Source: a virus
IMG/VR virus record: IMGVR_UViG_3300030102_008350
Coordinates: 7,042-42,864 of that record
Strand: one strand, 5' to 3'
Length of the DNA: 35,823 nucleotides
Positions 13,889-35,823 of the stretch are shown here, piece after piece (within the stretch, counting starts at the first letter, position 1; each line of letters opens with the position of its first letter). The notes below the pieces were generated by a model. The model saw only the letters and a program-made list of their open reading frames with translations, had not been told where the DNA came from and searched no databases. A program made the translations under genes and the position numbers.

Positions 13889-13895
13889 GTAAAAT

Positions 13896-14786: not shown

Positions 14787-15231
14787 TAGTAGGCTCAGGT
14801 AATAGAAGTGATCCAATAGGAATTAAAATTTCGGTAAGATCACCATCTGTATCTGCTACGGACAAACTAATTTGATCAGCTAGTCTATACCATGATATAG
14901 TATTACCATCTAGATCGAATGACCCAGAATCAGCACCTGTATCGGCAAATAGCTGTTCAGTAACCTGCTTAGAGAGCTCAGAATATATTCTAGACTGCAA
15001 GTTAGTCATGAATACATTTAGAGGCGTTCTTTGAGCAGCTAGATTAGCTTGAATCTCTAAAGACTTTATTTCATCCCTAATAACTTTACGTCTACCAGCT
15101 GAAATATTCTCTAGATTTATTTTATGCGCACTGTACCCAATACCTGTAAAAGATGGAGATTTGAATCTAAAAGTTAGTTCATTAGCAGAGACGCTACTAC
15201 AGAAAAGTAATATTAACCAAATATACTTCAT
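14764..15231 (-). CDS. csgF: CsgF-like curli assembly factor
   Basis: A 155-residue protein with a signal peptide ending near SVSA (residue 16). The mature N-terminus ELTFRFKSPSFTG matches the start of CsgF (TMTFQFRNPNFGG), the segment known to insert into the CsgG pore. Further matches are the amphipathic helix LNVFMTNLQSRIYSELSKQV (about 71-90) and the C-terminal beta segment ISLSVADTDGDLTEILIPIG. A CsgF role (coupling secretion to surface nucleation of curlin) follows from the adjacent csgG. The usual partners CsgE, CsgC and CsgD are not in the window. A late box lies 5 nt before the ATG. Confidence 0.88.
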   Translation of the reverse strand: MKYIWLILLFCSSVSANELTFRFKSPSFTGIGYSAHKINLENISAGRRKVIRDEIKSLEIQANLAAQRTPLNVFMTNLQSRIYSELSKQVTEQLFADTGADSGSFDLDGNTISWYRLADQISLSVADTDGDLTEILIPIGSLLLPEPTNEETTTE

Positions 15232-17616: not shown

Positions 17617-18552
17617 ATGGTAAAATTAGATAACAGTAATATTAGTAAGCATTTAGGTCAAACTTCAAAATATAAATCTAAGTATGATCCTGAACTGCTA
17701 GTCAGAGAACCTCGTCAGTCTAATAGAACACATTTAAATATTGACGATAATAATTTACCTTTTCTTGGTAATGATACCTGGAATGCTTATGAGATTTCGG
17801 CTTTAACAGTAAATGGATTACCTGTTGTAGGTGTAGCAAAAATTGTTTACCCTTGTAGTAGTAAATATATAGTTGAATCTAAATCTATTAAGTTGTATTT
17901 TAATTCATTTAATATGACTCGCTTAGGGGAAACTACTGAAGAAGTTCTTAAAAATATTAGTGATATTGCTTCTCAAGACTTAAGTAAATTACTTGAAACT
18001 AAAGTTCAAGTAAAAGTGCATACTAATGCATATGTTTTATCCGATACTAATCTTTTTACTGCTAAAAAAGAATGGATGCATGGAGAAGAATGTACTCCTA
18101 GCTATATAACTCTTGAAGATGAATATCCTATTGAAGATACAGAGTTTACTGTATATGCTGAAAATCCTGATTTACTAAAAGATATAGAAGATGCTCCTTC
18201 TGAAGAAGTGTATTATCATAGCGCCTTGCTAAAATCTAATTGTAGGGTAACTTCGCAGCCCGACTGGGGCGATGTTTATGTCTATATGAAAGGTAAAAAT
18301 ACTGTTGATCCTATTTCTTTGTTACAGTATATTGTTTCTTTTAGAGATGAATGTCATTTTCATGAAGAGATTTGTGAAGCTATCTATAAAAGACTAATGG
18401 ATACGATTGGCCCTGATGAGTTAGCAGTACGCTGCTTATATGCTAGACGTGGAGGTATAGATATTAACCCTGAGCGAGTCTCTCATGAAAAGCTTTTGCA
18501 TCATACTCTAAGTCAAGTTGATGTACCTCATATAAAAACTCCTAAACAGTAG
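17617..18552 (+). CDS. queF: QueF, NADPH-dependent preQ0 (7-cyano-7-deazaguanine) reductase, long form
   Basis: A 311-residue protein aligning along its length with the two-domain (YqcD-type) QueF of E. coli. N-terminal half: NLPFLGNDTW (46-55), ESKSIKLYFNSFNMTR (87-102), the QueF signature. C-terminal half: LLKSNCRVTSQPDWGDVYV with nucleophile C209 and D216, then SFRDECHFHEEIC with H249 and E250 for substrate binding, and ARRGGIDINP near the end. It reduces preQ0 to preQ1 using NADPH. With the DpdA-like gene at 9225 it suggests preQ1-type bases in phage DNA; queuosine in tRNA is the alternative. It starts 1 nt after the kinase stop. Confidence 0.93.
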   Translation: MVKLDNSNISKHLGQTSKYKSKYDPELLVREPRQSNRTHLNIDDNNLPFLGNDTWNAYEISALTVNGLPVVGVAKIVYPCSSKYIVESKSIKLYFNSFNMTRLGETTEEVLKNISDIASQDLSKLLETKVQVKVHTNAYVLSDTNLFTAKKEWMHGEECTPSYITLEDEYPIEDTEFTVYAENPDLLKDIEDAPSEEVYYHSALLKSNCRVTSQPDWGDVYVYMKGKNTVDPISLLQYIVSFRDECHFHEEICEAIYKRLMDTIGPDELAVRCLYARRGGIDINPERVSHEKLLHHTLSQVDVPHIKTPKQ

Positions 18553-18575: not shown

Positions 18576-18599
18576 CCCCATTAAATATGTTAAATGGGG
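18576..18599 (+). promoter_or_regulatory. Inverted repeat enclosing a late box and the first fibre gene's start codon
   Basis: CCCCATT at 18576-18582 pairs with AATGGGG at 18593-18599 (7 perfect pairs, 10-nt loop). The ATG at 18594 lies inside the 3' arm and the TTAAATA box in the 5' arm/loop. In RNA read through from the queF operon the hairpin would mask the start codon. RNA starting at the late box would lack the 5' arm. There is no T-run, so a terminator is less likely. Confidence 0.55.
18581..18587 (+). promoter_or_regulatory. Late box for the first giant fibre gene
   Basis: TTAAATA ending 6 nt before the ATG at 18594. The second fibre gene has the same box and the same 6-nt spacing. 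Confidence 0.55.
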
Positions 18600-21500
18600 C
18601 TTATAAGAACATTTGACGGTCAAACTAACGTATTCCTTGGGAGCGTAGGTCTAGGAGCTACTCCTAATGAGCGTTTAACCGTAAATGGTAGTATTAGTGC
18701 TAATAATACTATTTTTGGTAAATCTATTTCATCCGGTAATTATTTAGGTACTTGGAAAGGGGACCCTTTAAGTAGCGATCAAGTTATAGTAGAGAGTGTT
18801 GATTTAAAAACAACAAATATATCTGCGGGATTAATATTAGCAGCAGACGGAAAAGGTGGAGTTGAATTTGTTGAAAATACCGGTGTTAGTAATATTAACA
18901 ATATAGAAGGTAACTTAACTGTCACAGGTAATATTAGCGCCGGTGGTAATTTAAGCGCTAGCACTATAAACGCTGCTACATCATTTATTTCAGGCGGTAT
19001 AGATCTTTTTGATATATTTGGCGCAGGTGGCTGCGCAGGTGGTGTAGGAGGAGCAGGAACTATAAATAAAATTCCTAAATTTACTACTTCTTCTTGTATA
19101 GGTGATAGCCTTATAAGTGAACTTGGTACTACTATTACAGTAAATGGTAATCTAAGTGCTAAATGTAATCTAAATATTGACGGTGATAGTACAATATTAG
19201 GCAATTTAAGTGTGCATGGTGACATGCATTATATTGATACCAATGTTACAGTAACATCAGCTTTATCGGTAGTTAACACTGGTACTGGACCAGCATTATT
19301 TGTTCGTCAGGATGGAGCAGAGCCTATTGCTCATTTTATAGATAAAGACGGTGATGACATAGTTTTTGCTGATGATGGTAAGCTCGGAATAGGTACATTT
19401 AATCCAGATGAGAAGCTTACAATTGTAGGTAACGCTAGCGCTAGTAGTAATATATTTGCTAAAAATAATGTATATTCAGGTAATAAATTATTTGTTTTTG
19501 GTGAGTCAACTTCTGCTGGTAATTATATTTGTAATAATAGTTCTGGTGATACTACATTCTTTAATAATGGTGGAGAAAGAATGACCATAGAAAATGCTGG
19601 TAATGTTGGTATAGGTACAGCAACACCCGGTGATAAACTAACTGTACAAGGTAACATTAGCAGTAGCGGTAGCATATGTCTGTTAAATGATGGTAGAATT
19701 AGATTAGGTGACAGTAATGATTTAGATATTTATCACGATGGGACAAACACTCGCATTGAAAATGATACAGGTGATTTAATTATAGAGAATGGTGGAGACG
19801 ATATTAAAATTTTAGCCGAAGACGATGTTGTTATTAGAGACAATGATGACTCTACCAATATGGCTCAATTCATTAATGGCGGTGCTGTAGAGTTATACCA
19901 TAGCGGTAATAAAAAATTAGAGACTACTACTGACGGAATTAACGTAACAGGTACAGTTACTTCTGATGGTCATACCATTGCGGGTAATCTTAGTTCTAAT
20001 GGTACTGGAATATTTAAATCTTTAAGCGGTGAAGATTCAAACTGTTGTAATTATTTTGCTGGTAATGTTGGTATAGGAACCAAAGTGCCGGAAGCGCCTC
20101 TGCATGTTAATTCTTCTGGCGGTACTTTGGCTCAGTTTCATAGAAGCGGTACTCAATTAGTAACAATTGGTGGGTCAAGTAACATGGGACAAATTCGCTT
20201 TCAGCATGGTAGTGATTGCGTTTCAACAGGAGCTACTACAGGTGGGGATTATAGGATAGACACCGGTGGTAGTGTGGGGGCTGGCGACAACATGTTCTAT
20301 GTTTGTAAGGGTGGTAATGTTGGTATAGGTACAACATCACCAGCTGAAAAATTAACAGTTGCAGGTAACATAAGCGCTAGTGGTAGTCTTAGTGCTATAG
20401 GTTCAGATCCTAACTACTTTGAAGGTAGAGTTGGTATAAATACTACCTCTCCAAGTACCTGTTTAGAAATCGACGGAGGAACAGGCGTTGATAGCTCTGG
20501 TGGTACTATAGTTATAAGACAAAAAGGAAACACATTTAATGATGGTATTGCAATAACAAGCAGTCATGCTAATTCTCATAGAATATGGAAAGATTCTGAT
20601 AGTACTTTATATATTGGATCAACAGTCGACCCAGATGCGTTTGCACAAACATTAGCTGGTAATGTTGGTATAGGAACTACAAATCCTGCTGAAAAACTCT
20701 CCGTATATGGTAACATAAGTGCTAGCGGGTCATTGAGCGGTACAAGCGTATCAGTTACAGATACATCTAGAGGGTTTGTTTCTGCTGGTCGTGACTTAGC
20801 AGATATCTTTCAAGTTGAACCCGGTGGTATAGATGGGTCAGGAACTGCTTGTAAAATTCCTATTTGGACTGATAGTGATACCATCGGTAATTCAATTTTA
20901 AGTGCTACGAGTACTACAGCAACTGTACAAGGAAATTTTTGCTCTTGTGCATTGAGCTCGATTAATGCAAGTTGCGATAATTATTTTGCTGGTAACGTTG
21001 GAATTGGTACAACTAACCCGTCGCATAAGTTTCATGTAAAAGCGGAAGCTGATGGTGATTATGTTGCTAGGATAGGAAATACAGAAGCTACCGCAGGTGC
21101 TAACTATGGATTAAAGATAGATGGCGGTTCGAATGCTTCAGATGTTGCGCTAGAAGTAAGTAGCTTAGCAGGCACTCATCTTTTTGAGGTAAGAGGTGAT
21201 GGAAATGTAGGAATAGGTACATCTACACCATCTGCTCCTTTACATGTAACATGTAATGGTGATGTTAGTACAGTAATTATTCATAGAGATGGTAGTGATC
21301 CAGGCTCAAGCGCTCTTGTAAATAGGATAAATTTTAAAACTGACTTTTCATCTGTTGAAAGTGATGTAGGTAAAATAGATGTTTGTACCAATGCTAGTTC
21401 ATTTAGAACTGATATGGACTTTTTTGTAAAGTCGACAGGAGGAAATATTTGTAAAGGTTTAACTGTACATGGTTCTACCAATGATGGAGCAAGAGTTGGT

Positions 21501-24500
21501 ATAGGTAATAATGTTTCTGATCCAACAGAAGCTCTTACAGTAACGGGTAATATTACCGGAAGTGGTAATATTACCACACAATGTGGTACTATGTGTGGTA
21601 AGATTGTTAGAGGTATAAGCTGTGTTGTAGCAACAAAAGTTGATTCACAATTTGTAGGAAATACTGCTGAGGTGTGTATTACTAGTGGGTGTCAAGGGTG
21701 TGTTAGAATAGGAACATCTAATGCAGTTGCGATGACTTTATCAGCTAATTCAGCTGGTACACCAAGAGTAGGTATTGGTACATCTACCCCTGATAAAACT
21801 TTAGTAGTTAGAGGAACAGATGCGGAAGTTGTAATTGATGATATTGATTCAACAGATACTCCTCGTCTTAGATTTAGAGAGTCTGGTAATACGTCAGGTC
21901 AAGTTTCAACTGATAGTTGTAATTTAAGATTCTTTACTCAGTCGTCTGAGCGCATGCGACTAGTTAACTCTACTGGTAACGTTGGTATAGGTACTACTTC
22001 ACCTTTAGGTAAATTAGAAGTACAAAGCTCTTCAGTTATAGGATCAGTTAATGCTGGTGCAGATGAATTGGTTCTTCAAAATTGTGGATTTACAGGCATG
22101 TCTATTTTAGCCTGTAGTAATGCAGCAGGTCAAATACTCTTTGGTGATGAAAATGCAAACGTTGAAGGTAAGATTCAATATTTTCATACTGATGATAGTT
22201 TTAGATTTAGTACTAATCAAACAGAAGCAGTTCGTATTGATTCATCAGGCTGTGTGGGTATAGGAACAACTAATCCTGCCGAAAAACTCTCTGTTTATGG
22301 TAACATAAGTGCTAGTGGTAGTATTTGTACTGCTGCTACTACAAATGGGTTTATGTCAGCTGGTAGAGATTTAGCTGATATATTTTCAACCACTTCAACA
22401 GGCGGGGTAGATGGTTCAGGTACCGCTGGTAAATTACCAGTTTGGGCAGATTCTAATACATTAGGAGATAGTCCTATTTCATCAATAAGTAATGGTATAT
22501 CTATTGGTAGCAATGGTTTAAATATTACAACTGGTAGTACAGTAGATAAGATTCGAAGCGATGCGTCATTCTTAGTACTTGAGAGTGATAATGTTATACT
22601 TAGAAACTGTGGAGGAACAGAAGATTATGGTAAGTTTCAAGAAAATGGAGCAGTATTACTTTACCACAATAACGTACAAAAATTTGAGACAACGAGTGCA
22701 GGAATCACTGTTAATGGTAGTATTAGCTCTAAAGGTTATTGTAGCGATGTAAATAATAATACATTTTTAGGTACAAATGCTTTGGTAAGCATTACTGAAG
22801 GGTGCTGTAACATTGGTATAGGAACATGCGCTCTGTTTGCTAATCTAACTTCTAATAATAATACAGCTATAGGTTCTCAGGCATTAAGGTGTAATACTAC
22901 AGGCGCGCAAAATACTGCTATAGGCAGAAATTCTGGTCGTGATAATACAGAGGGTACACAGAATACATCTGTAGGTGCTAATAGTTTTGTTTGTAATACT
23001 ACTGGAAGCTTTAATGCTAACTTAGGATACAATGCAGGATGTTCTAACACAACTGGTAATTATAATACCGGGATTGGTTATAATGCTAACCAAGATGTTA
23101 CTGATGCAGATTATAATACTGCAGTAGGATTTTACGCAAATAGAAATACCACAACTGGTAACTGCAATACAGCGCTAGGAGGATATGCTTTAAATACTAA
23201 CACTACCGGTGGTAATAATGTTGCTATAGGTATGATGTCATTATGCGCAAATGAGACCGCTAGTAATAATGTGGCTATTGGTAAATTTGCCTTGCGTAAT
23301 AATACTACTGCTAATAGTAACGTAGCTGTTGGGCATTCAGCATTATGTGCTAATACAACTGCTACCCAAAACACTGCTATAGGTTTTGCAGTATTAAAAG
23401 CTAATACTGGTGGTTGTAATACTGCATTAGGATTTTGTGCTTTACATAATAATAGTAACTCAACAAGAAATACTGCAGTAGGAATGAAAGCTGGATTAAG
23501 TAACACTACAGGTGCTTGCAATACTATAATGGGTAGTGAAGCATTTCTTTTAAATACCACCGGTGATAAAAATGTTGCTATAGGTCAAGGAAGTTTATAC
23601 ACAACTAACGGTGGTGCTCAAAACACTACAGTAGGTACATCTTCTATGTTTTATAACACTACTGGTTGTTTTAATACTGCAGTAGGAAAAAGTGCTTTAT
23701 TATGTAACACTACTGGTGGAAATAATGTAGGAATTGGATTGTGTACTCTTGCTTGTGTAGAAACAGGTTGCTGTAACATAGCGATAGGTGAATGTACGGG
23801 CCATGGAGTTGCTTGTGTTAACGGTACGATAGCTATAGGTCATTGCGCTTTATTTACTGGTCCGGGTTCTGCCGCTACAATAGCTATAGGTACTTTTGCT
23901 CTTAAGAGTTTGACAACAGGTGCAGGTAATATGACCATGGGTGCATGTAGTATGTGCACAGCAACTACAGCATGCAATAATATCGGTTATGGTATCCAGT
24001 CACAAAAGAATCTTACAACTGGCCGTTATAATACTAGTTTTGGATTCAATACATTAGCAGGTAATAGAGAGGGTTGTTATAATACTGCTATTGGTTATCT
24101 AGCTGGAAATGGAGTATTCAACGGCAATCTTATGTGTAATACATATGTAGGCGCCTGCGCAGGTTATAGCAATTGCGATGGAAGTAGTAACGTTGCAGTT
24201 GGATGTGGTGCTCTGTTTAGTGGCGTTAGTGATGATAAGAATGTTGCTGTAGGACAGGGAAGCTTATATACAACTAACGGAGGAGCAGATAACACTGCAG
24301 TAGGTTTTAAATCTTTATATAGCAACACAACTGGATGTTATAATACTGCTGCTGGTTTATGCGCTCTATCAAATAATACTACAGCAGTTTGGAATACTGC
24401 AGTAGGATATCAGGCAGGTTTAGAAATTACTACTGGATCCCAAAATACTTTATTAGGACCTTATGCTGGTCAAAAAACAGCCTCAGGACAACAAAATACA

Positions 24501-26228
24501 TATCTAGGATTTGCTGCTGGTAGATGTAATGTATGCTCTAGTAATGTTGCTATAGGTTATAATGCTGCTAGATGTCAAAATGATGGTAGTACTGCCTTAA
24601 CTTGTGCTATGTCAGGAATCTATATTGGTGATTCTGTAAAAGGTACTCAAGGAGAAATAAATTCAATAGTTATTGGATACGATGCATGCAGCTGTGGAAG
24701 CAATACTGTTAATATTGGTAATAGCTGTACTACAACGACTTATTTAAATGGTAATGTTACATTTAACTGTAGCTTAAGTACAAACTGCAGCGGTATATTT
24801 AGCTCATTGAGCGCAGAGAATTCAAGCTGTAATAATTATTTTGCAGGTAATGTAGGTATAGGTACAAATATCCCGCATCCAAATGCTAAACTAACAGTAC
24901 AGAGATCAGATGATCAAATTAGAATAACTGATGGTACCCTGGGGTATGATATAGGTTACGATAATACATATTTTAGATTAAAAAATTCAGCTGGTGATAC
25001 GCATTTTGTAGCAAACTGGAGCACTGGTAATGTAGGTATAGGTTGTGCTGCTCCTGGTACTAAGCTTCATGTTAAAGGTGCAGTAAAAATAACAAATAAT
25101 AGTACAACTCATACTGGAGGTTTATGTGTAGTTGATTGTGCTAACGCTAGACCATGGCGTATATATGGTACTGGTCCAGGAGGATGTCAAGTAATTGAAA
25201 CTTCTGGTACAAGTAATTCTATTCATTTTGGTTCAGAATTAGGTGGAGCAATAAACATAAAAACATGCGATACTACTAGAATGTTTATATCTGGTGGTGG
25301 TCATGCTATAGGTATTGGTTCTACTAATCCTACATCAACAATGATGTTTGCTGATAACTGTAAATTAGCATTTGGTAATGGTAGCGACTTACAAATATAC
25401 CATGCTGGATGTCATAGTTATGTAGATCAAACTGCTGCTCCTCTAGGTGATTTATACATCAGACAGATGGGAGCAAATAGAGATATCCTTATTCAAGCTG
25501 ATACTGATGGTAATGGTGCTGCGTCTAATTTTATTATAATAGATGGTAGCCAAAGTGCTATTAGGATGAAAAGACAGACTAAATGGGACGATAACATTTG
25601 CGCTACATTTGGTGATGGTTCTGATTTATGTATATTTCATAATGGTACCCACAATTTTGTAACAGCTGAAGGAGGAAATGGTAGTTTATATATAAGACCC
25701 GGATCAGGTAACACTGTACAGATAGAAGATAAAGATGGTCAAGATATGATTACTGCAGCTGGTGCTGGTGCAGTTAATCTTTACTATAATAATTCTAAAA
25801 AGCTAGAGACGACTAATGTTGGTGTTTGTGTAACAGGCCATGTTTGTGCGTGTGGAAATGGTTATTTTTCCTGTGTTATAGCAGGTGGTTATTTTGAGGA
25901 AAAAGCAGCTAATCCGAGTTTAGCTGGATACCCTACCGGTACTATAGTGAGCATAGGTGAAAGTGGTGATTTAATTAAGTCTACCGTTAAAAATGATAGA
26001 AAAGTATTTGGAGTAACACAAAATGGTGTTTGTCAGCCTATAGTTTTAGGAGCTGAGCCTGTTTTAGTTACTGGAGACATAAGAATAGGAGATTATATAA
26101 CTACGTCGAATAAACCTGGACATGGTATGAGAGCTACTTGTATCCTACATGGAGCAGTGATAGCACAAGCTATGGAAGCAGGTTGCGGTGACTCTCATTT
26201 AGTGAAAGCGATGATTCGTAAGATGTAG
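18594..26228 (+). CDS. Giant tail fibre protein 1 (NVGIGT modules plus NTAIG head-like repeats)
   Basis: A 2544-residue virion fibre, probably for host recognition. Residues 1-1385 consist of tandem phage-fibre modules ending in NVGIGTxxPxxKLxVxGNISASG, with three copies of an SAGRDLADIF-type unit (about 136, 725 and 1255) and a TSALSVVNTGTGPALF module near 220. Residues about 1388-2045 are roughly 38 copies of a 17-residue unit (NTAIGxxALxxNTTGxx) like YadA head repeats, expected to stack as a trimeric beta roll, with cysteines at recurring positions. Fibre modules return to about 2430. The C-terminal 110 residues (GTIVSIGES, GVTQNG, GDIRIGDYITTS, AQAMEAG) resemble the beta-barrel Peptidase_G2-like fibre tip. 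No signal peptide. Confidence 0.88.
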   Translation: MGLIRTFDGQTNVFLGSVGLGATPNERLTVNGSISANNTIFGKSISSGNYLGTWKGDPLSSDQVIVESVDLKTTNISAGLILAADGKGGVEFVENTGVSNINNIEGNLTVTGNISAGGNLSASTINAATSFISGGIDLFDIFGAGGCAGGVGGAGTINKIPKFTTSSCIGDSLISELGTTITVNGNLSAKCNLNIDGDSTILGNLSVHGDMHYIDTNVTVTSALSVVNTGTGPALFVRQDGAEPIAHFIDKDGDDIVFADDGKLGIGTFNPDEKLTIVGNASASSNIFAKNNVYSGNKLFVFGESTSAGNYICNNSSGDTTFFNNGGERMTIENAGNVGIGTATPGDKLTVQGNISSSGSICLLNDGRIRLGDSNDLDIYHDGTNTRIENDTGDLIIENGGDDIKILAEDDVVIRDNDDSTNMAQFINGGAVELYHSGNKKLETTTDGINVTGTVTSDGHTIAGNLSSNGTGIFKSLSGEDSNCCNYFAGNVGIGTKVPEAPLHVNSSGGTLAQFHRSGTQLVTIGGSSNMGQIRFQHGSDCVSTGATTGGDYRIDTGGSVGAGDNMFYVCKGGNVGIGTTSPAEKLTVAGNISASGSLSAIGSDPNYFEGRVGINTTSPSTCLEIDGGTGVDSSGGTIVIRQKGNTFNDGIAITSSHANSHRIWKDSDSTLYIGSTVDPDAFAQTLAGNVGIGTTNPAEKLSVYGNISASGSLSGTSVSVTDTSRGFVSAGRDLADIFQVEPGGIDGSGTACKIPIWTDSDTIGNSILSATSTTATVQGNFCSCALSSINASCDNYFAGNVGIGTTNPSHKFHVKAEADGDYVARIGNTEATAGANYGLKIDGGSNASDVALEVSSLAGTHLFEVRGDGNVGIGTSTPSAPLHVTCNGDVSTVIIHRDGSDPGSSALVNRINFKTDFSSVESDVGKIDVCTNASSFRTDMDFFVKSTGGNICKGLTVHGSTNDGARVGIGNNVSDPTEALTVTGNITGSGNITTQCGTMCGKIVRGISCVVATKVDSQFVGNTAEVCITSGCQGCVRIGTSNAVAMTLSANSAGTPRVGIGTSTPDKTLVVRGTDAEVVIDDIDSTDTPRLRFRESGNTSGQVSTDSCNLRFFTQSSERMRLVNSTGNVGIGTTSPLGKLEVQSSSVIGSVNAGADELVLQNCGFTGMSILACSNAAGQILFGDENANVEGKIQYFHTDDSFRFSTNQTEAVRIDSSGCVGIGTTNPAEKLSVYGNISASGSICTAATTNGFMSAGRDLADIFSTTSTGGVDGSGTAGKLPVWADSNTLGDSPISSISNGISIGSNGLNITTGSTVDKIRSDASFLVLESDNVILRNCGGTEDYGKFQENGAVLLYHNNVQKFETTSAGITVNGSISSKGYCSDVNNNTFLGTNALVSITEGCCNIGIGTCALFANLTSNNNTAIGSQALRCNTTGAQNTAIGRNSGRDNTEGTQNTSVGANSFVCNTTGSFNANLGYNAGCSNTTGNYNTGIGYNANQDVTDADYNTAVGFYANRNTTTGNCNTALGGYALNTNTTGGNNVAIGMMSLCANETASNNVAIGKFALRNNTTANSNVAVGHSALCANTTATQNTAIGFAVLKANTGGCNTALGFCALHNNSNSTRNTAVGMKAGLSNTTGACNTIMGSEAFLLNTTGDKNVAIGQGSLYTTNGGAQNTTVGTSSMFYNTTGCFNTAVGKSALLCNTTGGNNVGIGLCTLACVETGCCNIAIGECTGHGVACVNGTIAIGHCALFTGPGSAATIAIGTFALKSLTTGAGNMTMGACSMCTATTACNNIGYGIQSQKNLTTGRYNTSFGFNTLAGNREGCYNTAIGYLAGNGVFNGNLMCNTYVGACAGYSNCDGSSNVAVGCGALFSGVSDDKNVAVGQGSLYTTNGGADNTAVGFKSLYSNTTGCYNTAAGLCALSNNTTAVWNTAVGYQAGLEITTGSQNTLLGPYAGQKTASGQQNTYLGFAAGRCNVCSSNVAIGYNAARCQNDGSTALTCAMSGIYIGDSVKGTQGEINSIVIGYDACSCGSNTVNIGNSCTTTTYLNGNVTFNCSLSTNCSGIFSSLSAENSSCNNYFAGNVGIGTNIPHPNAKLTVQRSDDQIRITDGTLGYDIGYDNTYFRLKNSAGDTHFVANWSTGNVGIGCAAPGTKLHVKGAVKITNNSTTHTGGLCVVDCANARPWRIYGTGPGGCQVIETSGTSNSIHFGSELGGAINIKTCDTTRMFISGGGHAIGIGSTNPTSTMMFADNCKLAFGNGSDLQIYHAGCHSYVDQTAAPLGDLYIRQMGANRDILIQADTDGNGAASNFIIIDGSQSAIRMKRQTKWDDNICATFGDGSDLCIFHNGTHNFVTAEGGNGSLYIRPGSGNTVQIEDKDGQDMITAAGAGAVNLYYNNSKKLETTNVGVCVTGHVCACGNGYFSCVIAGGYFEEKAANPSLAGYPTGTIVSIGESGDLIKSTVKNDRKVFGVTQNGVCQPIVLGAEPVLVTGDIRIGDYITTSNKPGHGMRATCILHGAVIAQAMEAGCGDSHLVKAMIRKM
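19209..19430 (+). repeat. TSALSVVNTGTGPALF fibre module, copy in fibre 1
   Basis: About 74 residues reading SVHGDMHYIDTNVTVTSALS through GIGTFNPDEKLTI. A clearly homologous copy lies in fibre 2 at about 27291-27513 (SVHGDLTYINTTISTTSALS). Both keep NxGTGPALFVRQ(D/E)GA and a D-G-D-D/GDD stretch. It is a module shared by marine T4-like fibre proteins. Confidence 0.8.
22758..24725 (+). repeat. NTAIG/NTTG repeat tract in fibre 1
   Basis: About 2 kb of in-frame units of roughly 51 bp (17 residues), consensus N-T-A-(I/V)-G-x-x-A-L-x-x-N-T-T-G-x-x. Units differ in nucleotide sequence, so this is an old, diverged array. Cysteine recurs after TG, before NTTG, and in the GxC(A)L position. An octapeptide-plus block GQGSLYTTNGGA occurs twice (about 23583 and 24252). 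Confidence 0.85.
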
Positions 26229-26236
26229 ACATTAGA

Positions 26237-26243
26237 TTAAATA
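26237..26243 (+). promoter_or_regulatory. Late box for the second giant fibre gene
   Basis: TTAAATA in the 21-nt gap between the fibre genes, ending 6 nt before the ATG at 26250. Confidence 0.5.
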
Positions 26244-26249
26244 TTATAA

Positions 26250-29200
26250 ATGGCAAAAGAATTAAGAATAACATCAACTGGAGGTATAAGCGCTGCCGGC
26301 GGCTTAAGTGGTGGGGGTGACTGTAATTACTTTGCTTGTAGTGTAGGTATTGGTACAAATAAACCTAGCACCTCGCTCGATGTAGCAGGTACAATAAGAA
26401 TGACTAGCTCGTTAAGAGTTAATAACGGGAGTAATAAATTAGTTCTTTTTGGTGATAGTAGTAAATTAGAGCTTCATGCAGCCGGATCTGATGGTATAAT
26501 TTTTAAAAATAATGCAAACAGTGAGACAATTAGGATAGATGGAAGTGGAAATTTAGGTATAGGTACTTGTAGCGCTGCTTCAGCACCATTACATTTTGGG
26601 AAAACTACTTATGATACACCTTCTGGTGAGAATTTTTATAGAATAAAGTTCAAAGATCAGGGAGGTATAATGAATGATGTTGGTATAGGCCAACAAAATT
26701 TAAACTCCATGGGATTCAACATTACACCAGGTGGTTGCTTTACATGGTACGCCGGTACTAGTGATGAAAAAATGAGGTTAAATAGTGGTGGATGTCTGGG
26801 TATAGGTATATCAAATCCAACATATCAAGTAAGTGTAGCTGGATCAATATGCGCTTCATGCCAAGGTCGTTTTGGTAATGGTACTGCTGGCGCGCCATCT
26901 TATTCGTTTAATTCAGATAGTGACTCTGGAATGTATAGAGCTACTACTAATGAATTAGCTTTCTCCACTGGAGCTACAGAGCGGGTAAGAATAGATTCTG
27001 CTGGTTGTGTTGGTATTAATGAAGATGATATTGATGCCTATTTACATTTATCTAATAGTGGAGTAATAAATCAAAAATTTGAAAGACCGGGAGCAGCTGC
27101 CTGGCGTTTAGGTATCCCTGCTAGTCAGACATATTTTGCTATCGATCGCAATAATGATAATTTAAGTACTCCAAAATTAATAATTGATTCAGATGGTCGT
27201 GTTGGTATAGGTACTACAACTCCACTGTCTGCACTTCATGTAGATGGTGAAGCTTATATTTCTCAAGATACATCTATAATGGGTAACTTGAGCGTTCACG
27301 GAGATTTAACATATATTAATACTACTATTTCTACGACATCAGCTTTATCTGTAGTGAACGCTGGTACGGGTCCTGCTTTATTTGTACGTCAAGAAGGCGC
27401 GCAACCGGTTGCACATTTTGTAGATGCTGAAGGAGATGATGTAGTTATCGATAATGATGGTAGATTAGGTCTCGGTACATTTAGCCCTTCCTATAAATTA
27501 CATGTAAGTGGTGGGCAGTCTGGTTTAATTGCAAGTAACGGAAGTGAGAGCTCCTTAATATTAGGAAGAGCGGATTTTCCTGGACATGATTGGTGTTTTA
27601 ATCATGCCGGTTGTGATTTAAGAATTTATAATACATGTGGAGCAGGTCATTGTGTATTAATTGGTGTTAATTCAGGAGGTACAGCTCAAAGCAACTGTGT
27701 TGGAATTGGTACTGCTCAGACTAGTCACATGTTAAACGTGAAATGTACTATAGCTGTTGAAGATAGAAATTCAACAGATACCCATGCAATACTTGACTCG
27801 AGTTGTTCAGAAGGTAGATTGAGACTATATAATGGAGTTAACTGGGGCTTTATTGCAAGAGGCATAGATAATTCTCCAGTAATTGGTGCAGCTTATACTG
27901 GTTGTCTAAGAATTGCAGGATTTTGTGATTCAGCTGGATCATCTGCACAATCTGATTTAGTGAGGTTTCATTTTTCTAATAGTACTGTTGGTATTAGAAA
28001 ATCATCTACAGCAGAACGTGCTTTAGATGTTGGATCCGGACATGCTATAATTAATTCTGCTTTACAACAAAGATCCGGAGTAAACCTATCTCAAATATGC
28101 TGTGATAATGTTTATATTAATACCATGGGTCCAATATTAACTGATGGAACTGCCGCTAATATTAATAAATACGGTACATTTAAAGGTTATCAAGCAGCTT
28201 ATGGATGTTGTGATAGTTCTGGTTATAGAGTTTATGCGCAAGGAGGTTTTTCACGCCCATTGTTTGAGTTTTATTCAGGTAATGCTGGAACTACCGGTGG
28301 GTTAAATTGTAGTTCTGCTATTAGAGATGGTTATTTATATCAATTTATTAAAGGTCCTTCCTTTTTTGGTGATGGTTCAGGATTTGGATTATCTGCTACA
28401 AATACAGATTTTATATATGGTATCGACTCAAGCTGTAGATTAACAGTAGGTAATTCAATTAGTTCTGCTTTTGGTTATTGTAGTGATCATAATAATAACA
28501 CACGAATCGGTACTTCAGCTGGGGAAGATTTAACTAGTGGATTAAACAATACTACAATAGGTGCTTTTGCTGGTAGATGTACTACAACTGGATGTTATAA
28601 CGTTGCTATAGGTAATAACTCTCTGCAACTTAATACAACCGGTTGTCAAAATGTAGCAATTGGTCAAGGAGCATTGAATCTTAATACGGGTTCAGGTAAT
28701 ATAGCTATTGGTAAATGTACAATGAGATGCGCTACTACAGCCGGTCTAAATATTGGAATCGGTCTTTGTGCTATGTTAGGGACGGTTACTGGATGTTTTA
28801 ATGTTATAATGGGTAGATTTGCAGGTGTGGGAATGACCAGTGCTGCTAGCAACGTTGGGATAGGAGATCAAGCAGTTAGATGTTTAACTACAGGTGAGTG
28901 TAATACCGCGGTAGGTGGTAGCGCTTTATTTTCAAATACTACTGGCTGTTTTAATACTGCAGTAGGAAGACAAGCTTTAGCAAATGAAGTAACTGGTTGC
29001 TATAATACGGGGTTAGGATTTAGAGCTTTATGTTCTAGTAACGGCGGTATTTATAATACCGCAGTAGGCGCGCAGGCAATGCTGAACAATACTACTGGTG
29101 ATAATAATACAGCTATAGGCGGTTTAAATGCAATGGTAAATAACACAACCGGTCATAGAAACGTCGCTGTAGGTACTGAAACTCTAAGATCTAATACATC

Positions 29201-32200
29201 AGCTAGTTGTAATACAGCTGTTGGTAATACTGCAATGTTTTGTAATACTACTGGTAAAGAAAATACGTCTGTAGGTCAGAGCTCTATGCTTCGAAATAAG
29301 ACTGGCTGCTACGGTACAGCTATTGGTTGGTCAGCATTATATCATAACGTTTCAGGTAACAGTAATACAGCGCTTGGTTACAATTCATTAAAGAATACCG
29401 GTAATGTAGGTAGTTGTGGTACAGGGGGACAGTACAATACAGCAGCTGGTCATGGTTCACTAATGAATAATATTACCGGAAGTCAAAATACCGGTATAGG
29501 TTATTTCGCCGGATCTTGCTTAAACGGGTTAGCTAATACTGCTATAGGATATACAGCATTATGTGGTTTTGATGGAAAAGAAGGTTACCATGTAGCAGTC
29601 GGAGTAAATTCATCTAGATGTATGACTACCGGTGAATATGCTACTAATGTAGGTTTTGCTGCAGGTCAGAATACCACTACTGCTAACCATAACACTTTTA
29701 TAGGTTTTACTGCTGGATGTTGTAATGTAACGGGTTCCCTTAATACTGTATTAGGTAGTACAGCAAGAAGATTTGGGTGTACTGGTTGTAATAATGTTGC
29801 AATAGGTTATGGTTCACAACATTGTGGTGGTGACTGTAATAATAATACATCAATTGGTACTTGTACAATGTACTTTAATACCAACGGTTTAGAAAACGTA
29901 GCTATAGGTGCATCGTCTCTAAAAGCATCAGTAACCGGAGCTCAAAACACAGCAGTTGGTACATATACTTTATTAGTATCAAAAGCTAGTCATAATACAG
30001 CTGTTGGATATTCGGGACTTAAATGTAATATACATGGTACTGATAATACAGTTTTAGGATATTGTGCCGGTCACTCTAATACTTACGGTTGTAGAATAGT
30101 TTACATTGGTAATGAAGCTGGTAAATGTAATACTACCGGTTGCAATAATACAGGTGTTGGTAATCTCGCTATGTTTAAAACAGTTGGAGGTGATCAAAAT
30201 ACTGCCTTAGGTACTTACGCATTAATTTGTAATACTAATTCTAATGAAAATACAGCAATAGGTTACGCATCATTATATCATAATACAGCGGCGTGCAATA
30301 CTGCTCTTGGTTCTAGAACTTTATGTAATAATACGTGTGGTGCTAGCAATGTCGCTATAGGTTATAATACTTTATCTACTAGTGTTACTGCAGCTAGTAA
30401 CGTTGGTATAGGTGATCATGCTTTATTCAAAACTAATGCTCCAGATAATACCGGTGTAGGTAGAGATGTATTGCGTTGTAATAGAGCAGGTAGTTTTAAT
30501 ACTGCTGTAGGTAGATGTGCTGTGTATTGTAATACAAATGGTGGAGGGAATGCCGCTTTAGGTATGTGCGCTCTGTATAATGTGTTTTCATGCAATAACG
30601 TCGGTGTAGGTAGGAATGCAGGTGCATGTATTACTACCGGTTGTTTAAATACAGCTGTAGGTGCATCAGCATTAATGGGATTTAATACACAAGTAACTGG
30701 AAGTGATAATACTGGTTTAGGTTATTTTGCTGCGGGAAGAACAAGTTCCGGGGGAGGAAATGTTGCTGTTGGAGCCCGAAGTTTTTGTAATAATGCAGGT
30801 GGTAACTGGAACACTGCAGTAGGTTATTGTAGTCAACTGACAGCCACAGGTGGTAATTATAATACTGCAGTTGGTACTGTTAGTATGTGCTGTAGAACTA
30901 CAGGTCAGTGTAATACTGCTATAGGATATGCAGCCGGTAGATGTGGTACAACAGCTGAAGTAACGACCTTTGTTGGTATGAATGCTGGTTTAAAAAATAC
31001 AGCAGATAAGACTACAGCAGTAGGTTTTGGAGCTTTATCAAATAATACATCTGGTATTAATAATACTGCTGTAGGTTTTTGCTCTTTAGTAAATAATACA
31101 GGGAGTAATAATACGGCTTTTGGTACTTTTTCTTTACGAGATAATACTTCAGCAAATGGTAATATAGCAATTGGTAATTGTACTTCACTTAAAACTACTA
31201 CAGGAGCAAATAACGTTGCTATAGGAGCTGAAGCAATGAAATGTAACACAGAGGGGTGTAGAAATGTTGCTCTTGGTCATACAGCTCTACGAAGTAGTGA
31301 ATGTGCAAGCTTTAACGTTGCTATAGGTTATGTTGCGATGTATGATAACACAACTGGTTTTCAAAACGTTGCTGTTGGATACGGCTCCTTGGAAAATAAC
31401 ACCACTGGTAATAATAATACTGCAGTGGGTCAAGGTTCATTAGGAGCTAATACGACTGGTGGTGCTAACACTGCTATAGGTAGACAAGCCATGCTAGACA
31501 ATACAACTGGTAGTTTAAATACAGCAGTTGGAGAAGGAGCATTGAGTAATAATACTACTGCTACATGTAATACTGCTGTTGGTGGTAATGCATTATTTGC
31601 CAATACTACAGGTTGTTTTAATACTGCAGCTGGTAATGGTGCAATGCAATGTAATACTTGTGGTATTTGTAGTACAGCAATGGGTAGAAATGCATTATTA
31701 AATAATACACAGGGTCATTGTAACGTTGCAATTGGTTCTGGTGCTTTATTTAGTAATACAACTGGTTGTTTTAATACGGCTATAGGTACAAGAACTATGC
31801 TTTCTAACACCACAGCAAGTTATAATGTAGGTGTTGGTCAACAAGCAATGCATAATAATACTACCGGTGAATATAGTGTAGCTATTGGAATGTGTAGTAA
31901 TTATAGTAACCTTACTGGTGGTCTTAATACCTTTATTGGAGCCCTAGCTGGTCTATGTAACAAAGGTTCAAATAATACTTCATTAGGTTATAGTACATTA
32001 CGCTTCAATCAAGCAGGTTGTTATAATACTGCAATAGGTATAAATTCAATGTACTGTAACACTAATGGTACATTTAATGCAGCTCTAGGATATGCTGCTT
32101 TATTTAGCAATACTACCGGTACTCAAAATACTGCTACAGGTATTGAGACTTTAAAAAATAATACAACTGGTAGTTATAATGTAGCTGTAGGAACAACCGC

Positions 32201-35200
32201 ATTATGCTCTAATACTTCCGGACACTGTAATGTAGCTATGGGTAGACTTGCTTTACGTTTAAATACATCTGGTTGTCAAAACGTAGCTATAGGTGAAGCA
32301 GCTATGTGTAAAAATACAACAGGAATACGTAATGTAGCTTTGGGTAGAGCTGCTCTCTTTAATAATACAACCGGTTGTTATAATGTTGGTTTAGGTTATG
32401 GTGCAGGTGATTCTATTACTACAGGAAGTAAAAATATAGCTATAGGAGGATTTTCTTTACAAGCTTTAACAACTAACTCTAGCAACGTTGCAGTAGGATA
32501 CGAATCTCAATGTGCTAATACTTCCGGTAATTATAATGTAACTGTAGGTGATTCAGCTGGAAGAAAAGGTACATCAGCGGAAGGAAGTACTGCAATTGGT
32601 TTTGCTGCTTTATGTGCAAATTTAACTGGTGGTGATAATACTGCTGTCGGTAATCAAGCTTTAAGAAATACTATTTGTGGTTGTAACGTAGCTGTAGGTG
32701 CTTGTGCATTATATTCTAATACATGTGGTGAGCGTAATATTGCAATAGGGCGTCTTACATTCTGTAAAAATACTACTGGTTGCAATGCTGTAGCTGTTGG
32801 TAACGAAGCATTAAGATGTAATACTACAGGAATTAGAAATGTATCTGTTGGTGCATATGCTGGATGTTGTAATACCACCGGTGCTGATAATGTTTACATG
32901 GGTTATGCAGCTGGTTTGTGTAATTGTACTACTAACAATAGTGTAGGTATAGGTTTTTATGCTTTAATGAAAAACCAATGCGCAGGTAATACTGCTGTTG
33001 GAGCTTACGGTTTAATGTGCAATACAACAGGTCTTTATAATACCGCTGTAGGTTATGCTTCTCAGAACTACACCACTACAGGTGGAGGCAATACTTCATT
33101 AGGTTATCAGGCTTTATATCTTAATAATGAAAGTTCAGCTGCCCACAACACTGCAGTAGGTTCTTTTGCATTGGCTAATAATTCATTCGGTGGATGTAAT
33201 GTAGCTGTAGGAACTTGTGCACTTTGCGCTAATACTACTGGTGGTAATAACATAGCAATGGGCTTTAGAGCTATGTGTAGTAATACCACAGCAGCTAATA
33301 ACATTGCTATAGGTAGAGATGCAATGTGTACTAATACTACTGGCTGTGAAAACGTAGCAGTGGGTATGTGCGCTCTACGTAATAATTCCTTAGGTTGTGA
33401 TGGGCATAATTATAATGTTGCAATTGGTAATTGTGCACTGTTTCATAATACAGCACAAAGTAATACCGCTGTTGGTTATGCTTCATTAAGATGTAATACA
33501 ACCGGTGCTACTAATACAGCGTTAGGTGAAAACACTTTAAATAAAAATACAACGGGTAGTTGTAATATAGCTATAGGTAGACAAGCCATGTTTAGTAATG
33601 AAGTTGGAACTTGCAACATAGCTATAGGTAATAATGCTTTAATATGTCATTGCAGTGGTAATGGTAATATTGCTATTGGAAGACGTTCACTTAACAATCA
33701 ATGTACCGGTGTAAGTAATACTGTTGTCGGTACAGATGCAGCCTTTAATAATGTATCTGGTTGTAATAACGTTGCTATAGGTAGTAATACTCTTGGTAGA
33801 TCATTAACTGCATGTCGTAATGTTGGTATTGGTGATAATGCAGCATGTTGTTTGCTTGTTTGCGGCAGCGTTGCAGTAGGTTATAATGCTTTAATATATG
33901 GTACATGCGCGTGCAACAGTGTAGCGATAGGTTATAACGCTTTATTAAGTTGCTCAAGCGCAACTCCGTCGTGTCATTTTAATAATACTGCAGTAGGTGC
34001 ATTTGCTGGTCAATGTGCATTTAGTGGTATTAATAATGCATATTTTGGAACTACAGCTGGTCACAATAATAAATGCGGTAATGATAATACTGCAATTGGT
34101 TATGCAGCTATGCACTGTAATGTTGCAGGTGGACAAAATACTATAGTTGGTAATTTAGCTGGATACCTTACTACAGGATCCGCAAATACTATAGTTGGTA
34201 AAAATGCAATGCGTAATAACACATCTGGTTCATGTAACGTTGCAATGGGCTTTTGTGCTCTAGCATCTAATACGACAGGAAGTTGTAAAGTTGCAATTGG
34301 TTCATTTGCTTTATGTAAAGATACTACTTCTACCGGTTTTAATACAGCAGTTGGTGATCATTCTGGGTTCGGAAATACTACTGGTTACTCAAATATATAC
34401 ATGGGCCATATGACAGGTTGCTGTAATTCTAATGGTTATCAAAACGTATTTTTAGGTGCTCAAGCTGGTAGAAATATATCTGCAAGTGTTAATGACGTTG
34501 TTATGGTAGGTTATGCTGCAGCATGTAGCAACCAATGTTCACGTATTGTAGCTATAGGCTCCAGCGCATTAAGATCTAATACTACCGGTGCATGTAACTT
34601 AGCAATAGGTTTTACTGCATTACGCTGCAATACTACAGCTAATAACAATACTGCTGTTGGTACTGAAGCAATGTTTTACAACACAGAAGGATGTCAAAAT
34701 ACCGCATTAGGTAAAGCAATGACACTAAACTGCTGTGGAAGTAATAATACTGGATTAGGTTATTTAGCTTTAAATTGTAACGTTAATGGTAGTAATAATA
34801 CTGTAGTTGGATCACAAGCTTTAAACTTTACAACAACAAGTAACAATACTGCTATGGGTTACGGTGCAGCATATTGTGTTACCGGTTGTCAAAATACTGC
34901 AATGGGTTCTTTAGCTATGCGAGGTAATGCAACTGTTACTGGTAATTGTAACACAGCTGTAGGTATGAATGCTATGCGTTGTATATCAGCTGGTGTTTGT
35001 AGAACAGTAGCTATTGGTAACGGAGCATTATATAATTTTCAAAGTAATAATACTGTAGCGGTAGGTACATGTGCTGGTGCAAATACAACAACACCAAATA
35101 CAAATACATATGTAGGTCATTTTGCTGCTTATTCTAATACGACCGGAGCATATAATACGGTAATAGGTAGATCAGTATTTTATAATAATACTACCGGTAC

Positions 35201-35823
35201 ATGCAATACTGCAGTAGGTACTGATGCTTTAGGTAAGAATACAACTGCTAATAACAATACTGCAATAGGTACTCTAGCCATGGGTTGTAATACAACTGGT
35301 TGTAGCAATGCAGCTGTAGGTACATTTGCTTTATGCTGCAATTGCACAACTCATGAAAATGCTGCTTTAGGTGCATATGCATTATCTCGTCAGACTGGAT
35401 TTAGAAACGTTGGTGTAGGTTATGGTTCAGGTTGCACTACTAGTGGACATTGTAATATTTTTGTTGGTTGGGAAGCAGGTAGGTTTGTATGTGGTGCTTG
35501 TAGAGTAGTTGCAATAGGTTATCAAGCTCTAGGAGGTGGTGGTGATAAAACTGCTAATAATGTTATGGCTATAGGTTTTGCCGCTCTTTGTAGCAATACA
35601 ACAGGAACTGGTAATCATGCTATAGGTTATCAAGCTATGCAATTTAATACTACTGGTTGTCATAACGTAGGATTAGGACAAACAGCATTCTATTGTAACA
35701 CAACTGGTCAGAAAAATATTGGTATTGGTACTAGTGCAGGTTGCAGAAATGTATCAGGTAATTGTAATATAGCTATTGGTTTCCAAGCTGGTAAATTAAA
35801 TTGTACTGGTAGTCAAAATACAG
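26250..35823 (+). CDS. Giant tail fibre protein 2, incomplete at the window edge
   Basis: An ATG at 26250 opens a frame with no stop to the end of the window: at least 3191 residues. It starts MAKELRITSTGGISAAGGLS and has about 745 residues of fibre modules (CSVGIGTNKPSTSLDVAG, RVGIGTTTPLSALHVDG, GRLGLGTFSPSYKLHV) including the TSALSVVN module shared with fibre 1. From about residue 748 to the edge it is an almost unbroken array of NTAIG-type units, over 2400 residues. Cysteine recurs throughout. The frame is still in the repeat (GSQNT) at the last base, so the tip domain is not visible. Neighbouring late box and fibre 1 indicate a late structural operon. Length alone makes it one of the larger phage proteins. 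Confidence 0.88.
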   Translation, partial: MAKELRITSTGGISAAGGLSGGGDCNYFACSVGIGTNKPSTSLDVAGTIRMTSSLRVNNGSNKLVLFGDSSKLELHAAGSDGIIFKNNANSETIRIDGSGNLGIGTCSAASAPLHFGKTTYDTPSGENFYRIKFKDQGGIMNDVGIGQQNLNSMGFNITPGGCFTWYAGTSDEKMRLNSGGCLGIGISNPTYQVSVAGSICASCQGRFGNGTAGAPSYSFNSDSDSGMYRATTNELAFSTGATERVRIDSAGCVGINEDDIDAYLHLSNSGVINQKFERPGAAAWRLGIPASQTYFAIDRNNDNLSTPKLIIDSDGRVGIGTTTPLSALHVDGEAYISQDTSIMGNLSVHGDLTYINTTISTTSALSVVNAGTGPALFVRQEGAQPVAHFVDAEGDDVVIDNDGRLGLGTFSPSYKLHVSGGQSGLIASNGSESSLILGRADFPGHDWCFNHAGCDLRIYNTCGAGHCVLIGVNSGGTAQSNCVGIGTAQTSHMLNVKCTIAVEDRNSTDTHAILDSSCSEGRLRLYNGVNWGFIARGIDNSPVIGAAYTGCLRIAGFCDSAGSSAQSDLVRFHFSNSTVGIRKSSTAERALDVGSGHAIINSALQQRSGVNLSQICCDNVYINTMGPILTDGTAANINKYGTFKGYQAAYGCCDSSGYRVYAQGGFSRPLFEFYSGNAGTTGGLNCSSAIRDGYLYQFIKGPSFFGDGSGFGLSATNTDFIYGIDSSCRLTVGNSISSAFGYCSDHNNNTRIGTSAGEDLTSGLNNTTIGAFAGRCTTTGCYNVAIGNNSLQLNTTGCQNVAIGQGALNLNTGSGNIAIGKCTMRCATTAGLNIGIGLCAMLGTVTGCFNVIMGRFAGVGMTSAASNVGIGDQAVRCLTTGECNTAVGGSALFSNTTGCFNTAVGRQALANEVTGCYNTGLGFRALCSSNGGIYNTAVGAQAMLNNTTGDNNTAIGGLNAMVNNTTGHRNVAVGTETLRSNTSASCNTAVGNTAMFCNTTGKENTSVGQSSMLRNKTGCYGTAIGWSALYHNVSGNSNTALGYNSLKNTGNVGSCGTGGQYNTAAGHGSLMNNITGSQNTGIGYFAGSCLNGLANTAIGYTALCGFDGKEGYHVAVGVNSSRCMTTGEYATNVGFAAGQNTTTANHNTFIGFTAGCCNVTGSLNTVLGSTARRFGCTGCNNVAIGYGSQHCGGDCNNNTSIGTCTMYFNTNGLENVAIGASSLKASVTGAQNTAVGTYTLLVSKASHNTAVGYSGLKCNIHGTDNTVLGYCAGHSNTYGCRIVYIGNEAGKCNTTGCNNTGVGNLAMFKTVGGDQNTALGTYALICNTNSNENTAIGYASLYHNTAACNTALGSRTLCNNTCGASNVAIGYNTLSTSVTAASNVGIGDHALFKTNAPDNTGVGRDVLRCNRAGSFNTAVGRCAVYCNTNGGGNAALGMCALYNVFSCNNVGVGRNAGACITTGCLNTAVGASALMGFNTQVTGSDNTGLGYFAAGRTSSGGGNVAVGARSFCNNAGGNWNTAVGYCSQLTATGGNYNTAVGTVSMCCRTTGQCNTAIGYAAGRCGTTAEVTTFVGMNAGLKNTADKTTAVGFGALSNNTSGINNTAVGFCSLVNNTGSNNTAFGTFSLRDNTSANGNIAIGNCTSLKTTTGANNVAIGAEAMKCNTEGCRNVALGHTALRSSECASFNVAIGYVAMYDNTTGFQNVAVGYGSLENNTTGNNNTAVGQGSLGANTTGGANTAIGRQAMLDNTTGSLNTAVGEGALSNNTTATCNTAVGGNALFANTTGCFNTAAGNGAMQCNTCGICSTAMGRNALLNNTQGHCNVAIGSGALFSNTTGCFNTAIGTRTMLSNTTASYNVGVGQQAMHNNTTGEYSVAIGMCSNYSNLTGGLNTFIGALAGLCNKGSNNTSLGYSTLRFNQAGCYNTAIGINSMYCNTNGTFNAALGYAALFSNTTGTQNTATGIETLKNNTTGSYNVAVGTTALCSNTSGHCNVAMGRLALRLNTSGCQNVAIGEAAMCKNTTGIRNVALGRAALFNNTTGCYNVGLGYGAGDSITTGSKNIAIGGFSLQALTTNSSNVAVGYESQCANTSGNYNVTVGDSAGRKGTSAEGSTAIGFAALCANLTGGDNTAVGNQALRNTICGCNVAVGACALYSNTCGERNIAIGRLTFCKNTTGCNAVAVGNEALRCNTTGIRNVSVGAYAGCCNTTGADNVYMGYAAGLCNCTTNNSVGIGFYALMKNQCAGNTAVGAYGLMCNTTGLYNTAVGYASQNYTTTGGGNTSLGYQALYLNNESSAAHNTAVGSFALANNSFGGCNVAVGTCALCANTTGGNNIAMGFRAMCSNTTAANNIAIGRDAMCTNTTGCENVAVGMCALRNNSLGCDGHNYNVAIGNCALFHNTAQSNTAVGYASLRCNTTGATNTALGENTLNKNTTGSCNIAIGRQAMFSNEVGTCNIAIGNNALICHCSGNGNIAIGRRSLNNQCTGVSNTVVGTDAAFNNVSGCNNVAIGSNTLGRSLTACRNVGIGDNAACCLLVCGSVAVGYNALIYGTCACNSVAIGYNALLSCSSATPSCHFNNTAVGAFAGQCAFSGINNAYFGTTAGHNNKCGNDNTAIGYAAMHCNVAGGQNTIVGNLAGYLTTGSANTIVGKNAMRNNTSGSCNVAMGFCALASNTTGSCKVAIGSFALCKDTTSTGFNTAVGDHSGFGNTTGYSNIYMGHMTGCCNSNGYQNVFLGAQAGRNISASVNDVVMVGYAAACSNQCSRIVAIGSSALRSNTTGACNLAIGFTALRCNTTANNNTAVGTEAMFYNTEGCQNTALGKAMTLNCCGSNNTGLGYLALNCNVNGSNNTVVGSQALNFTTTSNNTAMGYGAAYCVTGCQNTAMGSLAMRGNATVTGNCNTAVGMNAMRCISAGVCRTVAIGNGALYNFQSNNTVAVGTCAGANTTTPNTNTYVGHFAAYSNTTGAYNTVIGRSVFYNNTTGTCNTAVGTDALGKNTTANNNTAIGTLAMGCNTTGCSNAAVGTFALCCNCTTHENAALGAYALSRQTGFRNVGVGYGSGCTTSGHCNIFVGWEAGRFVCGACRVVAIGYQALGGGGDKTANNVMAIGFAALCSNTTGTGNHAIGYQAMQFNTTGCHNVGLGQTAFYCNTTGQKNIGIGTSAGCRNVSGNCNIAIGFQAGKLNCTGSQNT
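27291..27513 (+). repeat. TSALSVVNAGTGPALF fibre module, copy in fibre 2
   Basis: Homologous to the module at 19209-19430 in fibre 1, at a similar distance ahead of the repeat arrays though in a different order relative to other modules. The pair documents module exchange or duplication between the two fibres. Confidence 0.8.
28492..35823 (+). repeat. NTAIG/NTTG repeat tract in fibre 2, continuing past the window
   Basis: About 7.3 kb of in-frame units of 16-19 residues, most of them 17 (for example NTAVGNTAMFCNTTGKE, NTSVGQSSMLRNKTGCY), with occasional insertions such as NTGNVGSCGTGGQY. By length this is roughly 130-140 units. Spacer residues carry Cys, Asn, Thr, Ser and Gly. Some stretches nearly match fibre 1 at DNA level, for example TTTTAATACTGCAGTAGGA at about 23669 and 28949. 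Confidence 0.85.

Follow-up and report, generated by a model that had tools for sequence, protein, structure and literature searches.

Two long cysteine-rich repeat fibres of a T4-like phage and the association of such fibres with phage-encoded GT9 glycosyltransferases

The stretch of viral DNA analysed here (the window, 35,823 nucleotides) spans positions 7042-42864 of the virus record IMGVR_UViG_3300030102_008350, which is 61,241 bases long. The record is a scaffold with four runs of exactly 10 N (contig 263-272, 7032-7041, 42865-42874, and 59109-59118). Two adjacent same-strand ORFs, fibre 1 and fibre 2 (Table 1), are the subject of this analysis. The second of these continues into the right-hand flank, which was missing from the preliminary description and has now been obtained, so that its end is known (Table 1). 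The third run of N lies in frame inside fibre 2, starting one base past the end of the window, and the true length of fibre 2 and of its array is therefore uncertain. At the other end of the record, the genes at contig 3298-6245 resemble, as judged by eye, bacterial DUF1501/DUF1549 proteins and, given this bacterial look, the left piece of the scaffold might be misjoined.

Table 1. Features in and around the two fibre genes (window coordinates; aa, amino acids)
Feature	Position	Strand	Description
csgF and csgG curli-secretion genes	10181-15231	-	adjoin genes for a FecR-domain protein and a CHASE2-adenylate/guanylate cyclase protein
Formyltransferase-like gene	16465-17028	+	runs towards fibre 1
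AAA ATPase gene	17025-17615	+	runs towards fibre 1
QueF (7-cyano-7-deazaguanine reductase) gene	17617-18552	+	directly before fibre 1
Fibre 1 gene	18594-26228	+	2,544 aa, 87 Cys (3.4%); matches PHROG families for virion structure and for tail spikes/fibres
Fibre 1 repeat array	22758-24575	+	aa 1389-1994; 35-37 coils of 17 residues; 5.6% Cys
Fibre 1 C-terminal domain	25629-26225	+	conserved in relatives with differing repeat content
Fibre 2 gene	26250-35823, open at window end; stop at 39092 (contig 46133)	+	4,280 aa including the 10-N gap, 228 Cys (5.3%)
Fibre 2 repeat array	28497-35823 in the window	+	aa 750 to about 3902 of the full gene; 181-189 coils, 142 of which start in the window; 5.8% Cys

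The QueF gene suggests DNA base modification. Downstream of the fibres lie T4-like genes, including a capsid gene around 32% identical to T4-like capsids. Curli genes are a described feature of the pelagimyophages, T4-like phages of SAR11 (PMC7029224), and the contig of the window shares with them a T4-like gp23, csgF, and csgG. It differs from them in that its capsid is only about 32% identical to that of the nearest named phage among the matches listed, and in that the contig holds no evidence as to the host.

Units of the 17-residue NTAIG repeat were counted with a cyclic 17-column profile, which gave 37 units in fibre 1 (35 of them near-complete) and, over the full gene past the window edge, 189 units in fibre 2 (181 near-complete), in keeping with earlier estimates of about 38 and at least about 130. 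The profiles of PHROG 23837, 6002, and 4636 match both proteins strongly (E 0, 8.6e-282, and 1e-269 for fibre 2; 6.6e-73, 4.5e-59, and 2.3e-68 for fibre 1), and tblastn links them to cyanophage, roseophage, and pelagiphage tail fibres. This homology to tail fibres is the reason for supposing that they serve in host attachment, and the products of the two genes would be the long tail fibres of a T4-like phage. Neither Pfam nor NCBIfam returned anything informative for the fibres, nor did Pfam for the C-terminal domain of fibre 1, and PDB sequence searches with the repeat returned nothing useful.

As to the fold, an AlphaFold single-chain model of the repeats is a beta-solenoid in which registers 2-4 of each coil form a strand, at a pLDDT of 65. 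YadA-type rolls are among its best structural matches (Z 11-12), with 1p9h at Z 11.6 (rmsd 2.5 over 120) and 7o23 at Z 11.6 (rmsd 6.5 over 215), although with this pLDDT-65 model other beta-helices reach Z 10. The YadA-like left-handed parallel beta-roll heads (YadA 1P9H, BpaC 7O23, AtaA 3WP8, and BoaA 3S6L) have one invariant glycine per coil, at position 8 of the repeat and following a strand of the V/I-x type, and here a glycine occupies register 5 in every near-complete unit (181/181 in fibre 2 and 35/35 in fibre 1). The fibres also share the NTAIG-like strand (NSVAIG in YadA), and the YadA-like character first proposed for the repeats is supported. They differ from the YadA heads in being phage-encoded, without a Pfam match and Cys-rich at variable positions, and in having coils of 17 rather than 14 residues; because of this coil length, they are likened to the YadA beta-roll rather than filed as a member. 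Insertions between positions 14 and 1 are known in beta-rolls (PMC9543794), and the three extra residues would fit in this place. The shafts would then be YadA-like left-handed parallel beta-rolls of 17-residue coils, trimeric by analogy. With a rise of about 4.3 A per layer (BpaC covers 81.5 A from layer 23 to layer 42; PMC9543794), around 185 units should form a roll of about 80 nm in fibre 2, and fibre 1 should have a roll of about 15 nm; the suggestion that fibre 2 could span hundreds of nanometres was thus too generous.

Is the array real? In IMGVR_UViG_3300030106_007757, a close relative from another sample, both fibre genes are present in the same order, each with 5.4% Cys, which rules out the possibility that the array is an assembly artefact. 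Other relatives (L201-L206) keep both ends of fibres 1 and 2, with 0 to 90 NTAIG units in the middle, so the arrays behave like exchangeable modules.

Cysteine makes up 3.4% of fibre 1 and 5.3% of fibre 2 as against 0.81% of the contig's other genes, and a contig-wide Cys excess is thereby rejected. In fibre 2, the cysteines of the repeats fall at registers 7 (21), 10 (26), 11 (47), 13 (9), 14 (13), 15 (1), 16 (39), and 17 (22), and none at registers 1-6, 8, 9, and 12. This corresponds to the set positions that had been noticed by eye, "GxCAL" being register 7, "before NTTG" registers 10-11, and "after TG" register 16, and the register preference in the repeat alignment is strong (chi-square P = 7.6e-71 for fibre 2 and 4.9e-8 for fibre 1). 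Much of this preference is exclusion from the framework: positions 1-5, 8, 9, and 12 never hold Cys, which occurs only at variable registers, chiefly 7, 10, 11, 16, and 17. The variable positions hold roughly one Cys per coil, spread out. In solved beta-rolls, the invariant glycine, the core strand, and the solvent-facing positions have been located (PMC9543794), and a mapping anchored on the glycine would place register 16 facing the solvent and registers 7 and 17 at the subunit seam.

A wider sample showed how unusual these fibres are. When 73 NTAIG arrays were sampled blind to Cys, 68 had less than 1% Cys and three had at least 2%; the initial remark that cysteine is out of the ordinary in phage fibres is supported. 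NTAIG fibres form two classes, one nearly Cys-free and one Cys-rich, the latter with the same Cys registers in 52 fibres. Taking as Cys-rich those with at least 2% of repeat residues as Cys at registers 7, 10, 11, 16, and 17, the fibres of the window, at 5.6% and 5.8%, belong to this class. They share the repeat and the strong PHROG matches with the known NTAIG-repeat phage fibres (PHROG 23837, 6002, and 4636; HTVC112P gp48 and P-SSM2 PSSM2_298), the typical member of which has less than 1% Cys in its repeats, and they differ from them in Cys content and in the very long array. Of the named phages, HTVC112P, HTVC111P, and AG-345-L05 carry arrays that contain cysteine (2.2-4.1%), whereas P-SSM2, CRP-1, CRP-7, Venkman, and others do not. 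A literature search on Cys-rich or S-glycosylated phage fibres found nothing direct.

One candidate role for the cysteines is in disulfides, whether inside a roll, from one to another of its three chains, or linking separate fibres, which might stiffen the fibre after release. The preliminary description proposed that the cysteines would form ladders along the fibre and that disulfides, metal binding, or thiols at trimer contacts could make it rigid. Tests for such ladders, and for paired cysteines inside a coil or from coil to coil, found neither. In fibre 2, same-register Cys neighbours occur at or below chance (at register 11, 6 observed and 11.9 expected), and over 44 non-redundant Cys-rich fibres there are 242 such neighbours where 272 are expected (z -2.25). 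In these same fibres, two cysteines share a coil less often than expected (322 against 419, z -5.6), an avoidance that is absent for Ser and Asn. Along the stack of the 44 fibres, Arg and Lys keep apart from each other, as charge repulsion predicts, and the test can therefore detect spatial effects. Between coils, no Cys pair was significant after permutation and multiple testing, seam registers 7 and 17 included; the diagonal pair from register 17 to register 16 one coil further on is slightly more frequent than expected (52 against 34.6), which together with the sheer number of cysteines is what speaks for disulfides, but its permutation P is 0.096. With neither same-register nor seam enrichment, and with within-coil pairs depleted, in what is a single-chain analysis, ladders of disulfide or metal lose their main prediction, and disulfides as the role of these cysteines are very unlikely. 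Another possibility is that the cysteines bind metal along the fibre, and iron-binding tail fibres have been proposed for marine phages (for example PMC11705849). Metal binding is, however, extremely improbable here, since the cysteines are lone and dispersed, their close pairs are depleted, and no two- to four-ligand geometry recurs.

A different explanation is that the exposed thiols are simply tolerated: selection against surface Cys would be relaxed in some phage lineages, cysteines would drift into the variable positions as other residues do, and close pairs would be purged as would-be wrong disulfides. This fits the confinement of Cys to variable registers, the lack of pairing, the depletion of close pairs, and the AT-richness of the Cys-rich loci. 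It also fits the Cys conservation between fibre 2 and its relative, which is only modestly above that of other variable residues (Cys is kept at 82% of aligned variable positions and other residues at 67%, P 0.036); in fibre 1, Cys conservation is not above that of other variable residues. However, the Cys fraction of fibre 2, 0.053, exceeds the codon expectation of 0.034, and Cys is confined to the fibres. Codon bias as the sole cause is rejected: Cys is above the position-specific codon expectation and yet near absent in many relatives with the same repeat. Moreover, low-GC reference arrays are mostly Cys-poor (7/31 have at least 2%). Tolerance also leaves unexplained the link to glycosyltransferases described below, and we consider it rather unlikely.

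This link emerged from the genes next to the arrays. Beside Cys-rich arrays lie, among others, genes for GT9, GT1, and GT2 and for sugar modification, while no glycosyltransferase is among the families listed for genes adjoining Cys-poor arrays; associations involving antisense ORFs were left out of this test as artefacts. GT9 was then used as a bait, blind to Cys. In the HTVC112P-type GT9 clade, an NTAIG ORF lies directly upstream in 71 of 74 cases (median gap 19 bp), and 64 of these 71 arrays have at least 2% Cys, in the same registers. In a second GT9 clade, which shares 24% identity with the first, Cys reaches at least 2% in 39 of 40 arrays, compared with 7 of 111 reference arrays. A third clade adjoins NTAIG fibres with 5.6-6.7% Cys or is near unrelated proteins that have 8-11% Cys and no NTAIG repeat, although 5 of its 14 loci are without a Cys-rich ORF. 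At L302, L304, and L305, fibre-like proteins that lack NTAIG repeats and in which Cys makes up 9.5-11% of residues (as many as 126 of 1,142 aa) are found close to GT9 genes.

Among arrays picked blind to both traits, GT9 is on 5 of 6 Cys-rich contigs and on none of 39 Cys-poor ones (P 4.9e-6), the latter having been hand-picked with some preference for low GC. Outside the window lineage, contigs of 50 kb or more have GT9 in 10/10 cases if selected for Cys and in 0/5 if Cys-poor; over all Cys-selected contigs, many of which are short, it is found in only 17 of 36. As for complete or large named records, GT9 is in HTVC112P, HTVC111P, and AG-345-L05, which have Cys-rich arrays, and is absent from eight Cys-poor records, with a weaker match in P-SSM2 and P-SSM5. 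In P-SSM2, the NTAIG fibre of which is Cys-poor, another protein, PSSM2_304 (357 aa), has 36 Cys (10.1%), including CCC runs, and is encoded about 2 kb upstream of the GT9-like gene; after this gene come those for a carbamoyltransferase, a PfkB kinase, and nucleotidyltransferases, as well as sugar genes and one annotated as phosphoheptose isomerase (L396 1261-8993, P-SSM2 232260-239992). Shared ancestry inflates such counts, and this confounding is reduced, not removed, by the repetition of the association over divergent GT9 clades, which share only 21-26% identity. Cys-rich fibres of whatever fold are accompanied by a phage-encoded GT9, often in the gene that follows; the linkage is statistical, and from it we infer the chemistry.

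The enzyme itself is confidently modelled as a GT9 fold. Its model (pLDDT 90.7) has GT9 enzymes as best matches (3tov, Z 22.9; 1psw, Z 20.2; TibC, Z 19.5), followed by unrelated GT-B folds at Z around 12. In the GT9-linked phages, a GT9-fold enzyme beside a repetitive beta-solenoid surface protein recalls the autotransporter heptosyltransferases TibC and AAH with their adhesins TibA and AIDA-I. The phage enzymes have about 290 aa, around 100 fewer than TibC, share near 12% identity with it, and are not filed as members of this group, of which a four-Cys iron finger and a dodecameric assembly are marks; the known acceptor is moreover Ser (PMC4358343), whereas the acceptor proposed for the phages is Cys, and there is no such enzyme on the fragment that contains the window.

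In the window's own lineage, GT9, GT1, GT2, and GT8 were sought on the 61-kb contig of the window and none was found. Three further Cys-rich fragments from this lineage, of 50.8, 86, and 96.6 kb, have no GT9. GT2 genes are present elsewhere in relatives of the window phage. The largest two of these, the 171-kb G002 and the 155-kb G006, have a GT9 32-37 bp downstream of another Cys-rich fibre, made of GGGxN repeats with 5.7% and 3.7% Cys, respectively (L394 2753-6175 and L395 3132-6519). Fibres 1 and 2 of G002 have no NTAIG repeats and only 1.6% Cys. In no relative examined are fibres 1 and 2 themselves adjacent to GT9.

The GT9 association points to modification of thiols. In the explanation that we consider the best, and hold with middling confidence, the exposed cysteines are sugar-attachment sites for a phage GT9, with a linkage through sulfur that we infer. 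After translation, GT9 would attach a sugar, possibly heptose, to the Cys thiols, much as the autotransporter heptosyltransferases hyperglycosylate solenoid adhesins, with Cys in place of Ser. The sugar may cap reactive thiols and protect the fibre or tune host binding. That the cysteines are lone, dispersed, and excluded from the framework counts in favour of their being acceptors. Against it are the absence of GT9, GT1, GT2, and GT8 from the 61 kb of the window's contig, the absence of GT9 from three other fragments of its lineage, the lack of a GT9 beside fibres 1 and 2 in the relatives examined, the Ser acceptor of the TibC precedent (PMC4358343), the limited share of Cys-selected contigs with a GT9, and the unremarkable Cys conservation of fibre 1. 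The proteins with around 10% Cys also count against it, since their cysteines occur in runs as well, unlike the spacing in the beta-roll.

TibC modifies Ser and not Cys or Thr (PMC4358343), AAH likewise modifies Ser, and GT9 adjoins the arrays, so the phage GT9 could instead glycosylate Ser, Thr, or Asn of the fibres, with Cys-richness as an independent trait of those phages. At the variable positions, Ser is nevertheless lower in Cys-rich fibres than in the others (12.8% vs. 15.9%), and what the GT9 neighbours of differing folds have in common is only high Cys. Glycosylation of these other residues is hence distinctly unlikely. If Cys is indeed the acceptor, then, slightly more tentatively, the phages would have a previously undescribed modification system, in which a phage GT9 glycosylates tens to hundreds of surface Cys thiols on fibres of several folds, Cys being enriched as the acceptor.

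Most relatives of these fibres nearly avoid cysteine, and against this background a recurrent class with up to about 11% Cys is linked, across phage lineages, to an enzyme with a heptosyltransferase fold. Cys glycosylation is testable in cultured phages, namely the Pelagibacter phages HTVC111P and HTVC112P and the Prochlorococcus phage P-SSM2. If true, it would be a common but so far unrecognised means of modifying the proteins of host recognition, and one of the rare examples of protein glycosylation that is both dense and S-linked.
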